Assembly: GCF_014217875.1 (NCBI RefSeq)
Contig: NZ_CP059060.1
Location: forward strand, 1,612,001-1,676,000
Origin: Synechococcus sp. LTW-R
GTDB taxonomy: Bacteria; Cyanobacteriota; Cyanobacteriia; PCC-6307; Cyanobiaceae
Length of the DNA: 64,000 nucleotides
Reading direction: 5' to 3'
How positions within the stretch are numbered: position 1 is the first letter of the stretch; each line of letters opens with the position of its first letter. Positions 20,549 through 28,621 of the stretch are shown piece after piece. The notes beneath the pieces are model-generated. The model was given only the letters and a program-made list of their open reading frames with translations. It ran no database searches and was not told the origin of the DNA. A program made the position numbers and the translations under genes.

Positions 20549-21328
20549 TCACATGCCGGTGATGCAGTAACCGGCGTCGACATAGATGGTCTGACCGGTG
20601 ATGCCGGAGGCCAGGTTGCTGGCCAGGAAGGCGGCGGTGCCACCCACCTCGTCCTGGGTGACGGTGCGGTGCAGGGGAGCCTTCTCCTCGACGTTGTGGA
20701 TCATGTCGAGGATGCCGCCAATGGCGGAGCTGGCCAGGGTGCGGATCGGACCGGCGCTGATGGCGTTCACACGCACCTGCTTCTCACCCAGCTCAGCGGC
20801 CAGGTAGCGGACGGAAGCCTCCAGAGCAGCCTTAGCCACGCCCATCACATTGTAGTTGGGAATCGCGCGCTCGGCGCCGAGATAGCTCAGGGTGATCACG
20901 CTGCCGCCATCGCTGAAGAGGGGCTTGGCGTGCTTGCAGAGCGGAGCCAGGGAGTAGGCACTCACCTCGAGGGCCCGGGCGAAGCCCTCGGGAGAGATGT
21001 TCGAGTAATCCCCGATCAGCTCATCCTTACCGGCGAAGGCCAGGCAGTGCACGAGGACATCGATCTGACCCCATTGCTCCTTGACCTTGGCAAACACCGC
21101 CTCGATTTGAGCAGGATCCTGCACGTTCAGTGGCTCAAACAGGGTGGGGGCCAGGGGGGCGGTCAGCTCACGCACCTTGCCTTCAAAGCGACCCTTGTCA
21201 TCGGGAAGGTAGGTCACCCCAAGCTGGGCGCCGGCGGCGTGCAGCTGCTGGGCAATGCCCCAAGCGATCGACTTGTTGTTGGCGATGCCGGTGACGAGGG
21301 CCTTCTTACCGCGCAGATCGAGAAGCAT
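20549..21328 (-). CDS. fabI: Enoyl-[acyl-carrier-protein] reductase (NADH), FabI type
   Basis: 259 residues from the ATG at 21328, which gives the family N-terminus MLLDLRGKKALVTGIANNKS with the nucleotide-binding TGIANNKSIAWG pattern. An in-frame upstream start at 21382 would add 18 residues not expected in FabI. The active-site segment SYLGAERAIPNYNVMGVAKA near residues 147-166 has the Tyr-x6-Lys arrangement (Y...MGVAK) typical of FabI, and LASSAIGGILDMI near 196 covers the substrate-binding loop. It reduces trans-2-enoyl-ACP in fatty acid synthesis. Upstream of hisB on the same strand; divergent from the photolyase-like gene. Confidence 0.95.
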   Translation of the reverse strand: MLLDLRGKKALVTGIANNKSIAWGIAQQLHAAGAQLGVTYLPDDKGRFEGKVRELTAPLAPTLFEPLNVQDPAQIEAVFAKVKEQWGQIDVLVHCLAFAGKDELIGDYSNISPEGFARALEVSAYSLAPLCKHAKPLFSDGGSVITLSYLGAERAIPNYNVMGVAKAALEASVRYLAAELGEKQVRVNAISAGPIRTLASSAIGGILDMIHNVEEKAPLHRTVTQDEVGGTAAFLASNLASGITGQTIYVDAGYCITGM

Positions 21329-21339
21329 GAATTGGGCAC

Positions 21340-22350
21340 TTGCGATTGGGGGATTCTCACCCAGCCACGGTCGTGGACTCAACTAGCCAGGATCAACAGA
21401 CCCCCAAGACGCCGCCGTTGGCCAGTCCCACCCTGCGCGGAGTGCCCCTGAATTGGGATGAGCACCCGGGCGATCTCCCCCGCCAGTTCTCAGACCGCAG
21501 CGAGCTCGAGCGCACACTGCAGCAGCTCTTTCCTGAGGCCAGTGGCGGCTTGAGCCCGATCCCAGGGGGCCGGCGCAAGGCGGAGGCCCTGCTGGGCAAG
21601 GTCCAACCGGAGCGCTATGCGAAAGCCCGCAACTTTCTCAGTGGCCCCGTTACCCGGCTCTCGCCCTACATCCGCCATGGAGCGATCAGCCTGGCGGAAG
21701 TGCGGGATGCGGTCTTTGCCCGCACCAAGCAACGGCAGACCAGCGAGAAGCTGATCAATGAGCTGGGCTGGCGGGACTACTGGCAGCGCCTCTGGGCTCA
21801 GCTCGGCGACGGGATCTGGAGCGATCAGGAATCCCTCAAGACCGGCCATCACCCCGGCGCTTACGCCGAATCGCTGCCGGCGGATCTAGCCGACGGTCAG
21901 ACCGGCTTGGCCTGCATGGATGGATTCATCCAGGAGTTGCACCAAACCGGCTGGCTCCACAACCACGCCCGGATGTGGCTGGCGGCGTATGTCGTGCACT
22001 GGCGGCGGATCCGCTGGCAGGCCGGCGCCCAGTGGTTCCTGCGCCACCTGCTCGATGGGGACCCGGCCAGCAACAACCTCAGCTGGCAGTGGGTGGCCAG
22101 CAGCTTCAGCCACAAGCCCTACTTCTTCAACCGCGCAAACCTGGAGCGCTACAGCGATGGCCGCTACTGCCAGGACTGCGAAGTGAGCGCCAAGGGCTGC
22201 CCATTTGAGGCCAGCTACGAGCAGCTCGAGCAGCGCCTGTTCCAGCAGCAAGCCGCGATCCGAGAGACGAGCGATCGCCCCAACCGCCGCCAACGCCCCT
22301 CGAGCTCCAAAGCCTCCGCCTTCAGCCGTCCCGCCAAGCCGAACCGATGA
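21340..22350 (+). CDS. Photolyase/cryptochrome-like FAD-binding domain protein (separate gene)
   Basis: 336 residues carrying only the C-terminal FAD-binding domain of the photolyase/cryptochrome family. TRLSPYIRHGAISLAEV (near residue 105), LINELGWRDYWQ, FIQELHQTGWLHNHARMWLA near 194 and DPASNNLSWQWVASSFSHKP near 229 are the classical segments. The usual N-terminal alpha/beta domain is missing here; about 95 low-complexity residues precede the first motif. The tail holds a Cys pattern C-x2-C-x6-C (CQDCEVSAKGC). The start is uncertain: TTG at 21340, or GTG at 21373. The stop overlaps by 4 bases with a gene coding an N-terminal photolyase-like domain, so the two may form one split enzyme or light receptor. 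Confidence 0.88.
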   Translation: MRLGDSHPATVVDSTSQDQQTPKTPPLASPTLRGVPLNWDEHPGDLPRQFSDRSELERTLQQLFPEASGGLSPIPGGRRKAEALLGKVQPERYAKARNFLSGPVTRLSPYIRHGAISLAEVRDAVFARTKQRQTSEKLINELGWRDYWQRLWAQLGDGIWSDQESLKTGHHPGAYAESLPADLADGQTGLACMDGFIQELHQTGWLHNHARMWLAAYVVHWRRIRWQAGAQWFLRHLLDGDPASNNLSWQWVASSFSHKPYFFNRANLERYSDGRYCQDCEVSAKGCPFEASYEQLEQRLFQQQAAIRETSDRPNRRQRPSSSKASAFSRPAKPNR

Positions 22351-22820
22351 ACCATCCGATCCTTTGGCTGCACGGCGACGCCTTGGGCCCCAGCAACCCC
22401 GCCCTGTTGGCCCACCCCGGTCAGCCGGCCGTGTTCGTCTTCGATCGCGAACTCCTGCGGGGCAAGAGTCCGACCACCGCCGATCCCCAGGACGCCGCGC
22501 CGGAGGCCGTCAGTCTCAAGCGCATCGGCTTTCTCTACGAATGCCTGTTGGAGTTGCCGGTCAGCCTGCGCCACGGGGATGTGGCCGAGGAGGTCCTGCG
22601 CTTTGCCCAGGCCCATGGCGCGGACGGCATCGTCACGAGCTCCAGCGCCGATCCCCGGGTGGAGAGCATCTGCCGCCAACTCGAGCAAACCCTGCCGGTG
22701 CAGCAGTTGGATCCGACGCCGTTCGTTGAGCTTGACGAAGGAGTGAATTTGGGGCGCTTCAGCCGCTACTGGAGGCAAGCCGAACGCGAGGTCTGGGCCG
22801 ACTGGGCGCCGCAGGCTTAG
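22347..22820 (+). CDS. Photolyase-type N-terminal alpha/beta domain protein (stand-alone)
   Basis: 157 residues. The sequence follows the photolyase N-terminal alpha/beta (antenna-binding) domain: ILWLHGDALGPSNPALLAHP opens it, then AVFVFDRELLRG, IGFLYECLLELPVSLRHGDV, and GADGIVTSSSADPRVESIC. In a normal photolyase this domain precedes the FAD domain in one chain. Here it starts 4 bases inside the end of the FAD-domain gene (ATGA), in reverse order. A complementary pairing of the two products is likely but inferred. It may have lost antenna binding. A further 1-kb convergent gene follows, overlapping by 4 bases at the end. Confidence 0.75.
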   Translation: MNHPILWLHGDALGPSNPALLAHPGQPAVFVFDRELLRGKSPTTADPQDAAPEAVSLKRIGFLYECLLELPVSLRHGDVAEEVLRFAQAHGADGIVTSSSADPRVESICRQLEQTLPVQQLDPTPFVELDEGVNLGRFSRYWRQAEREVWADWAPQA

Positions 22821-27172: not shown

Positions 27173-28621
27173 CTATCCAATTGTTGAGTATATCTCCTTG
27201 AATCGTCTCTGCTGGATTTTGTGATTAACTATCAATCTCGGATAGCCGCGACGCTCTATTGGGCTGATCTCACCGCTCAGCAAGTCCTTGGTGTTGACAT
27301 GCTTGAGCTCCGGTAGCCAACTGCGGATATAAACGCCTTGTGGGTCGAACTTGCTGGCCTGAGTTGCTGGGTTGAAGATCCGCAAGGGCTTGGGATCCAT
27401 CCCGCTGCTGGCACTCCACTGCCAACCACCATTGTTGGCCGCAAGATCCCCATCGACGAGGCGGGCCATGAAAGTGGTCTCGCCCAGGCGCCAATCGCAG
27501 ATGAGGTCCTTCACCAAATAAGAGGCGACGATCATCCGGCAGCGGTTGTGCATCCAACCGCTCTCGTTGAGCTGTCGCATCGCGGCATCAATGATTGGCA
27601 TACCCGTCAGCCCATCGCACCAAGCCTGATAGCGCTCAGGCGCGTTTTCCCAGGGGAACAACTTCCACTGGGGCCGGTACGGACCGTCGGCGAGCTCCGG
27701 GAAATGGAACAGCGCTTGTTGGTAGAACTCGCGCCACGCCAACTCCTGCTCCCACACCTGAATCGACTCGCGCTGCTCATCGCTGCGGACCAACGCCTTG
27801 GCTTGCTGAGCGGCATCCCAGGCCTGACGGGGACTGAGGGTCCCGAACTTCAAGGCTGCCGAGAGGCCTGACGTCCCAGCCTCTCCCGGCATGTTCCGGC
27901 CGGGCTCATAGGACAACAACGGGCCGCCATCACAGAAGGTTTGGAGTTGCTGAGCTGCCGCGACCTCACCCGGGCGACAGGGGCAGAGATCAACTCCGGG
28001 AAAGGTTTTGCCAAGGGACTCGAGAGACGGCAGGTCTCGGAGCAGTGGCAGTCGCTCTGGCAGCTCGGCCCCATGGGCTAACAGTCCCTGGGGAGCGGGC
28101 CGCAGCGCTAACTCTCCAGCCGCTGCCCTGCGCTCAACCTGGCCAAACCAATTGCGCTTGAACGGTCCGTACACCTTGTACGGATCTCCGCCGCCCGTCT
28201 TGAGGGCCTCCGGAGCAACCAGGAGCTGATCCCAGTCCACCAGGACCTTTTGCCCCTGCGCCTGAAGCGCCGCAGCCACCCGTCGATCGCGTTCACGCCC
28301 GTACGGCTCCACATCACGGTTCCAGGCGACGACACCAGCACCGATCGCCTCGGCCAACTGTGGCAATACCTCCGCAGGATCCCCTCGAAGCAGCAGCAAC
28401 TCACTACCGGCCTTGCGCCAATTGGCCATGAGTTCATTCAGGCTCTCGAGCAGAAACCAGACCCGAGCTGGCGCCATATCGGCGGCCGAGAGGATCGCCG
28501 GATCCAGCACAAACACCCCGGTGACCGCAGGGGTGGCTGCAGCCGCTGCCGCCAAGCCGAGGTTGTCGGCCAGGCGCAAATCGCGGCGATGCCAAAACAG
28601 CCAACGCTCCGGTGCCATCAA
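27173..28621 (-). CDS. phrA: Deoxyribodipyrimidine photolyase (class I)
   Basis: 482 residues, complete. It repairs cyclobutane pyrimidine dimers with light energy. The N-terminal alpha/beta domain opens with WLFWHRRDLRLADNLGLAAA. The FAD domain has LKFGTLSPRQAWDAA, WEQELAWREFYQQALFHFPE, AMRQLNESGWMHNRCRMIVA and GDLAANNGGWQWSASSGMDP. The C-terminal YPRLIVNHKIQQRRFKEIYS is slightly unusual: the last 20 codons or so are AT-rich compared with the GC-rich body, just where the decayed gene joins. It lies next to the pseudogene on the same strand. A second, split photolyase-type pair is at 21340-22820. Confidence 0.95.
   Translation of the reverse strand: MMAPERWLFWHRRDLRLADNLGLAAAAAATPAVTGVFVLDPAILSAADMAPARVWFLLESLNELMANWRKAGSELLLLRGDPAEVLPQLAEAIGAGVVAWNRDVEPYGRERDRRVAAALQAQGQKVLVDWDQLLVAPEALKTGGGDPYKVYGPFKRNWFGQVERRAAAGELALRPAPQGLLAHGAELPERLPLLRDLPSLESLGKTFPGVDLCPCRPGEVAAAQQLQTFCDGGPLLSYEPGRNMPGEAGTSGLSAALKFGTLSPRQAWDAAQQAKALVRSDEQRESIQVWEQELAWREFYQQALFHFPELADGPYRPQWKLFPWENAPERYQAWCDGLTGMPIIDAAMRQLNESGWMHNRCRMIVASYLVKDLICDWRLGETTFMARLVDGDLAANNGGWQWSASSGMDPKPLRIFNPATQASKFDPQGVYIRSWLPELKHVNTKDLLSGEISPIERRGYPRLIVNHKIQQRRFKEIYSTIG

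Follow-up and report, generated by a model that had tools for sequence, protein, structure and literature searches.

Two neighbouring genes of Synechococcus sp. LTW-R share the two domains of a photolyase between them, with the FAD domain encoded first and the alpha/beta domain second, which is the reverse of the usual order. This raises the question of whether the two products act as one enzyme and, if they do, on which lesion. The window that was analysed is the whole stretch of 64,000 nucleotides around the pair, and the features referred to below are:

21340 to 22350, plus strand: phr4, predicted catalytic FAD-domain subunit of the Fe-S short photolyase-like (SPL) type (from PF03441, the 1owl alignment, start codons and the tree)
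21913 to 21915, plus strand: codon of C192, the first predicted Fe-S ligand (in GLACMD; C in 189 of 193 relatives)
21961 to 21975, plus strand: N208 to M212 (NHARM), aligned equivalents of N349 and M353 of Anacystis photolyase, which contact the cyclobutane pyrimidine dimer (CPD)
22168 to 22200, plus strand: codons of C277, C280 and C287 (C-x2-C-x6-C), the other three predicted Fe-S ligands
22231 to 22347, plus strand: Phr4 tail, rich in Arg, Ser and Pro and poorly conserved, at the position of the linker of natural fusions (from the alignment and the fusions)
22347 to 22350, plus strand: ATGA overlap of the phr5 start and the phr4 stop, read from the sequence
22347 to 22820, plus strand: phr5, putative alpha/beta (antenna or lid) subunit (from PF00875 matches of homologues, the family profile and the predicted fold)
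27173 to 28621, minus strand: complete class I CPD photolyase (phr3 type), context outside the pair

The sequence-only reading had described a 4-base overlap between the two genes and had placed the first one at 21340-22350. The overlap (ATGA) and the stop at 22350 are as described, but 21340 is just the mechanically called ORF start and lies 12 bases from where the divergent fabI likely begins, and the true start of phr4 is probably farther downstream, at GTG 21373, TTG 21418 or GTG 21442. The divergent stretch that separates phr4 from fabI on the minus strand (21328-21442) is very short and probably holds both promoters. The ATGA makes translational coupling of phr4 and phr5 likely, and overlaps of -4 or -1, the usual sign of such coupling, are found in 46 of 118 split pairs. 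The complete photolyase gene noted in the same window is also present, with the specification that it lies on the minus strand; the best NCBIfam match of its product is the class I 8-HDF type, at a score under the model cut-off.

Phr4 is a photolyase FAD domain (PF03441, E = 7.4e-24), with the HNHARM and SWQWVA motifs that had been recognized from the letters at residues 207-212 and 248-253, respectively. As a single sequence, Phr5 (157 residues) gives a weak match to PF00875 below the cut-off (E = 0.008) and only chance matches against the PDB, and a family profile was required. PF00875 is matched by 10 of 18 diverse Phr5 homologues, and the profile retrieves solved photolyase/cryptochrome N-domains (E = 3e-5 to 2e-3), as well as ordinary photolyase N-domains in whole genomes (E of about 1e-6 to 1e-8). 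Profile comparison with ordinary photolyase N-terminal domains gives an hhalign probability of 99% over 126 columns (single-comparison E = 9e-18). The predicted structure of Phr5 (pLDDT 89, pTM 0.79) shows an alpha/beta fold with five strands, and photolyase N-terminal domains are its closest matches (Foldseek E = 9.5e-5; VIA Z 12.2, rmsd 2.5, 114 residues); universal stress proteins, a common related fold, rank next (Z of about 9-11). These results confirm that Phr4 is the FAD domain and Phr5 the photolyase alpha/beta domain, in reversed order, and the second protein does fold in the way that had been anticipated. The RRDLR stretch usual in antenna domains is absent from Phr5, and we know of no pigment for this protein.

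The window pair is the ortholog of phr4/phr5 described by Haney et al. 2022 (PMC9426592), and the arrangement is thus already known. In that work the pair was found in all marine Synechococcus and in half of six Cyanobium strains, and fused as phr6 in two further Cyanobium strains, and four cysteines were noted. The domains, their order, the adjacency of the genes, the four cysteines and the lineage are alike in the published genes and in the window. The differences concern the cysteine spacing, which is 85-3-6 in the published strains versus 85-3-7 in the window Phr4, and the junction, where seven G-C pairs between the ORFs are stated for those strains and the window has the 4-base ATGA overlap. 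Disruption of phr4, in RS9916 only and possibly polar on phr5, lowered survival of UV-C 20-30 fold and had no effect with UV-B, while phr4/5 protected E. coli after UV-C, with no significant difference between light and dark. The same paper left the choice between a frameshift and two subunits open and suggested 6-4 specificity from the Fe-S cysteines, whereas we favour two chains and CPD specificity. What is new here is the evidence for two subunits, the spread of the pair over many phyla and a partner for the "short" photolyases.

The two proteins are near-obligate partners. Among 386 cyanobacterial genomes Phr4 occurs in 82, Phr5 in 83 and both in 81 (Fisher p = 4e-80, with genomes counted without correction for relatedness). 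The exceptions are a different, longer protein (G176, L133), a Phr5 at a contig edge (G047) and a genome with a broken Phr5 only (G497). The genes are adjacent or fused in most relatives, in line with the order predicted from the window; in 22 of the 81 genomes Phr5 lies outside the fetched phr4 locus, and for 12 of these 22 both genes share one contig, 26 kb to over 2 Mb apart, while two others are at contig ends. Beyond cyanobacteria, we used a GTDB scan that was led by Phr4 only, and was therefore blind to Phr5, with the best 80 of 586 matches as the sample. Within these best 80, 76 are members of the clade and all 76 have Phr5, which is fused in 22, in the locus in 46 and elsewhere in the genome in 8 (in one of the last, L208, at contig ends). 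The other 4, from Burkholderiales, lack the cysteines, are about 400 residues long and have a C-terminal domain of their own. The 80 loci come from Deinococcota, Planctomycetota, Verrucomicrobiota, Acidobacteriota, Chloroflexota, Pseudomonadota, Actinomycetota, Cyanobacteriota, an Eremiobacterota MAG and a bin labelled Paceibacterota; the clade spreads over about nine phyla as labelled in MAG record titles, and some of the MAGs may be mis-binned. In three sampled Actinomycetota genomes Phr5 is encoded about 1-1.5 Mb from the short photolyase gene. A pair that recurs in scores of genomes is far beyond chance, and since Phr4 and Phr5 travel together even when their genes are far apart, they are most likely separate subunits that assemble.

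Several observations were made alongside this survey. In the genome with the broken Phr5 (locus L303) phr5 is disrupted by a frameshift and phr4 is absent, and the two seem to decay together. Another genome, G407, has a full pair and in addition an incomplete one whose genes overlap by ATGA (L134, G407:C1:291000-296500). Large Deinococcus plasmids also carry the pair (L138, L139, L174, L175), fused in three species and split with a 4-base overlap in one, and transposase genes lie near two of them. A search for a phage origin gave 16 pattern matches in viral contigs, none of which was confirmed as a relative, and only distant matches (about 27-31% identity) in GenBank phage records.

We compared the junctions of the two genes across 188 Phr4 sequences by means of a FastTree tree; of the sequences, 117 have phr5 as a split neighbour, 41 are fused and 30 have no neighbour in the locus. 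The fusion state changed at least 10 times on this tree, or 5 times if only well-supported branches are counted. Haney et al. 2022 (PMC9426592) raised +1 frameshifting as a possibility, by which phr4/phr5 would be read as one fused protein through programmed ribosomal frameshifting. This proposal is compatible with how closely the two genes adjoin, in the window as in many strains, and with the existence of natural fusions. All three relative reading phases are nevertheless common among the 117 split pairs (68/27/22), with at least 33 phase changes on the tree, and the genus code g5 alone displays all of them (L011, L019, L058). Furthermore, the window junction would need a -1 shift and not a +1 shift, and in many pairs the genes are unlinked or stand tens to hundreds of bases apart. 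The frequency of the three phases, together with the repeated change of fusion state, argues against programmed frameshifting and in favour of two assembling chains. On the basis of this phase survey we rejected the frameshift, which we regard as very improbable.

Many relatives have natural fusions, in which both domains, again with the FAD domain first, are connected by a linker of roughly 23-53 residues. One of them, from a Cyanobium MAG (L245:2956-4377), was folded as a single chain with pLDDT 91.5 and pTM 0.92, the latter value indicating a confident prediction of how the two domains lie relative to each other, even though their order is reversed. The docking of Phr5 on Phr4 is thus modelled confidently, from one prediction of a natural fusion. 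When the FAD half of this model is compared with solved photolyases, the best matches are Fe-S 6-4 enzymes (Z 17.1, rmsd 3.6, 269 residues), and class I enzymes fit slightly less well (Z 14.1, rmsd 3.5, 248 residues).

Residue numbering was transferred to Phr4 by alignment with Anacystis photolyase (1owl). The class I CPD pocket set E283, W286, N349, M353 and W392 is present in Phr4 as E141, W144, N208, M212 and W251, and the FAD contact N386 corresponds to N245. These residues are kept in 179 (E141), 190 (W144), 192 (N208), 175 (M212), 193 (W251) and 193 (N245) of the 193 aligned sequences, in which M212 is replaced by L in 17 and E141 by Q in 12. At the class I N349 position Phr4 has N208 and not His. 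The equivalent of the outermost electron-transfer tryptophan (W306 in E. coli) appears to be missing from Phr4 in the alignment. Judged from these positions, the active site is of the CPD type and not of the 6-4 type.

The C-x2-C-x6-C pattern reported for the tail of the FAD protein corresponds to C277, C280 and C287, and a fourth conserved cysteine, C192, can now be added. All four are present in 186 of 193 sequences, as is each of the last three; all are lost in four sequences, the last three are lost in two, and one sequence is truncated. This pattern of joint presence and loss is as expected for the ligands of one cluster. L132, L242, L243 and L219 are natural Fe-S-less versions, which have lost the four Fe-S cysteines but retain Phr5 as a partner as well as the residues for CPD and FAD.

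The genome of the window has a single match to the DPRP N-domain (PF04244), at 631 kb, and none in the phr4/phr5 pair. By motif comparison, the DPRP-type photolyase encoded there has HHIQRL at the N208-M212 stretch and four cysteines of its own, and this protein (L309, G000:C1:631340-631993) is likely an Fe-S 6-4 photolyase. Phr2 of most marine relatives is reported to have lost the four cysteines, unlike L309.

We consider it probable that Phr4 and Phr5 form a heterodimeric Fe-S CPD photolyase. Phr4 would be the catalytic subunit that binds FAD, with C192, C277, C280 and C287 probably holding a [4Fe-4S] cluster. Phr5 would be a chain of its own, with its translation coupled to that of phr4 at the ATGA, and would dock non-covalently on Phr4 so as to cover the FAD side, where it may carry an antenna pigment. 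The complex would most likely split CPDs with blue light, acting beside the class I CPD and the 6-4-type photolyases of the same genome.

The specificity suggested in PMC9426592 would instead make the pair a 6-4 photolyase, as the four cysteines like those of the FeS-BCP 6-4 enzymes and the slightly better fit of the fusion's FAD half to their structures might indicate. We find this unlikely, given that the class I CPD residues are kept, that 6-4-type enzymes, including the one of this genome, have His at the N208 position, and that the genome already has a 6-4-type enzyme with four cysteines; moreover, one Fe-S SPL is reported to repair CPDs (Xu et al. 2021), and the SPL class is described as one of CPD repair enzymes in PMC9649867. 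Given the CPD-type residues and the 6-4-type enzyme already in the genome, CPDs are the probable substrate of Phr4/5, contrary to what PMC9426592 suggested. The proposal that the pair has a different job, such as light sensing, would make it a cryptochrome-like blue-light sensor instead of a repair enzyme. The related Fe-S protein CryB of Rhodobacter sphaeroides regulates genes (PMC9178010), the E. coli test gave no significant light effect (PMC9426592), and the apparent absence of the W306 equivalent points the same way. However, the CPD-binding residues are clearly conserved, as is the N386 equivalent, and the phr4 mutant has a UV-C survival phenotype (PMC9426592), which together make repair likelier than signalling; the sensor is now less supported and seems to us quite improbable.

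It is also conceivable that Phr4 is sufficient alone and that Phr5 is an independent protein which merely travels with it. A single-chain Fe-S SPL of Rhodococcus fascians is reported to repair CPDs (Xu et al. 2021); if so, repair in vitro would not strictly depend on Phr5. The SPLs are likewise described in PMC9649867 and PMC9178010 as having no alpha/beta domain. Against this stand the near-perfect co-occurrence of the two proteins even when unlinked, the at least 5-10 switches between fused and separate forms, and the confident docked model of the natural fusion, and we judge the independence of Phr5 to be improbable.

The heterodimeric CPD photolyase that we propose shares features with several known families. 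With the SPLs (Xu et al. 2021; SePhrC of S. elongatus, PMC9178010) it has in common a chain with no alpha/beta domain, the Fe-S cysteines and class I-like CPD residues. Their definition as proteins without any alpha/beta domain does not describe what is found, as a partner adjoins the window Phr4 and is present in all 76 clade members among the best 80 of 586 matches. In one genome of the S. elongatus group (G186, L124), which has a class I photolyase almost identical to the Anacystis enzyme, phr5 follows the SPL gene after 3 bases. NewPHL and Phr7, which are inverted-topology, single-strand CPD photolyases, have the same FAD-first order, but they form a separate clade, lack the Fe-S cysteines and are single chains. 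The prokaryotic FeS-BCP (6-4) photolyases PhrB and CryB share four equivalent Fe-S cysteines and the fold of the FAD half, but have the normal domain order, a DPRP N-domain in the chain and a His-containing lesion pocket. Finally, class I CPD photolyases (Anacystis, E. coli) share the lesion and FAD residues with Phr4, but are single chains of opposite order with neither the Fe-S cluster nor the short Cys-rich C-terminal end.

In a maximum-likelihood tree of FAD domains (62 rows, from which DPRP and Phr1 rows were excluded because of their too long branches), SPL/Phr4 (95/98), NewPHL (100/100) and the normal-order class I enzymes (100/100) form separate clades, and the window Phr4 falls outside the NewPHL clade. 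The difference between normal and inverted order amounts to one change on this tree, in which normal order is represented by class I only. The C-terminal domains of Persicobacter-like and Burkholderiales proteins resemble Phr5 (hhalign 96% and 90%, respectively), and most of them have an F-S-x-x-W motif; for the alphaproteobacterial NewPHL Z-domain versus Phr5 the hhalign probability is 22%. Cysteine-less proteins of about 400-450 residues with the FAD domain first (L252, L253, L254, L256, L133, L170, L273-L275) have such a Phr5-like C-terminal domain with F-S-x-x-W, as inverted photolyases between SPL and NewPHL; their hosts are Burkholderiales, Bacteroidota, Actinomycetota and a deep-branching genome of the cyanobacterial phylum. 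The simplest account, on an unrooted tree, would be one rearrangement to FAD-first followed by splitting and refusion.

We lean towards extending this account to the whole Fe-S "short photolyase" class, which would be obligately two-subunit (or re-fused), with a reversed order that arose in a single rearrangement, after which the halves were split, unlinked and fused time and again. If this is true, an alpha/beta half is present somewhere in the genome of each member, and none of them is an antenna-less ancestor. The existence of a partner weakens the use of the "short" photolyases as antenna-less ancestors. Programmed frameshifting and 6-4 specificity, which the literature had put forward as guesses, are now less likely and are directly testable. 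The fused, adjacent and unlinked versions found in nature offer a ready set for the role of the antenna domain, and the pair would, if our reading is true, be the first photolyase known as a heterodimer of a catalytic and an antenna/lid subunit.
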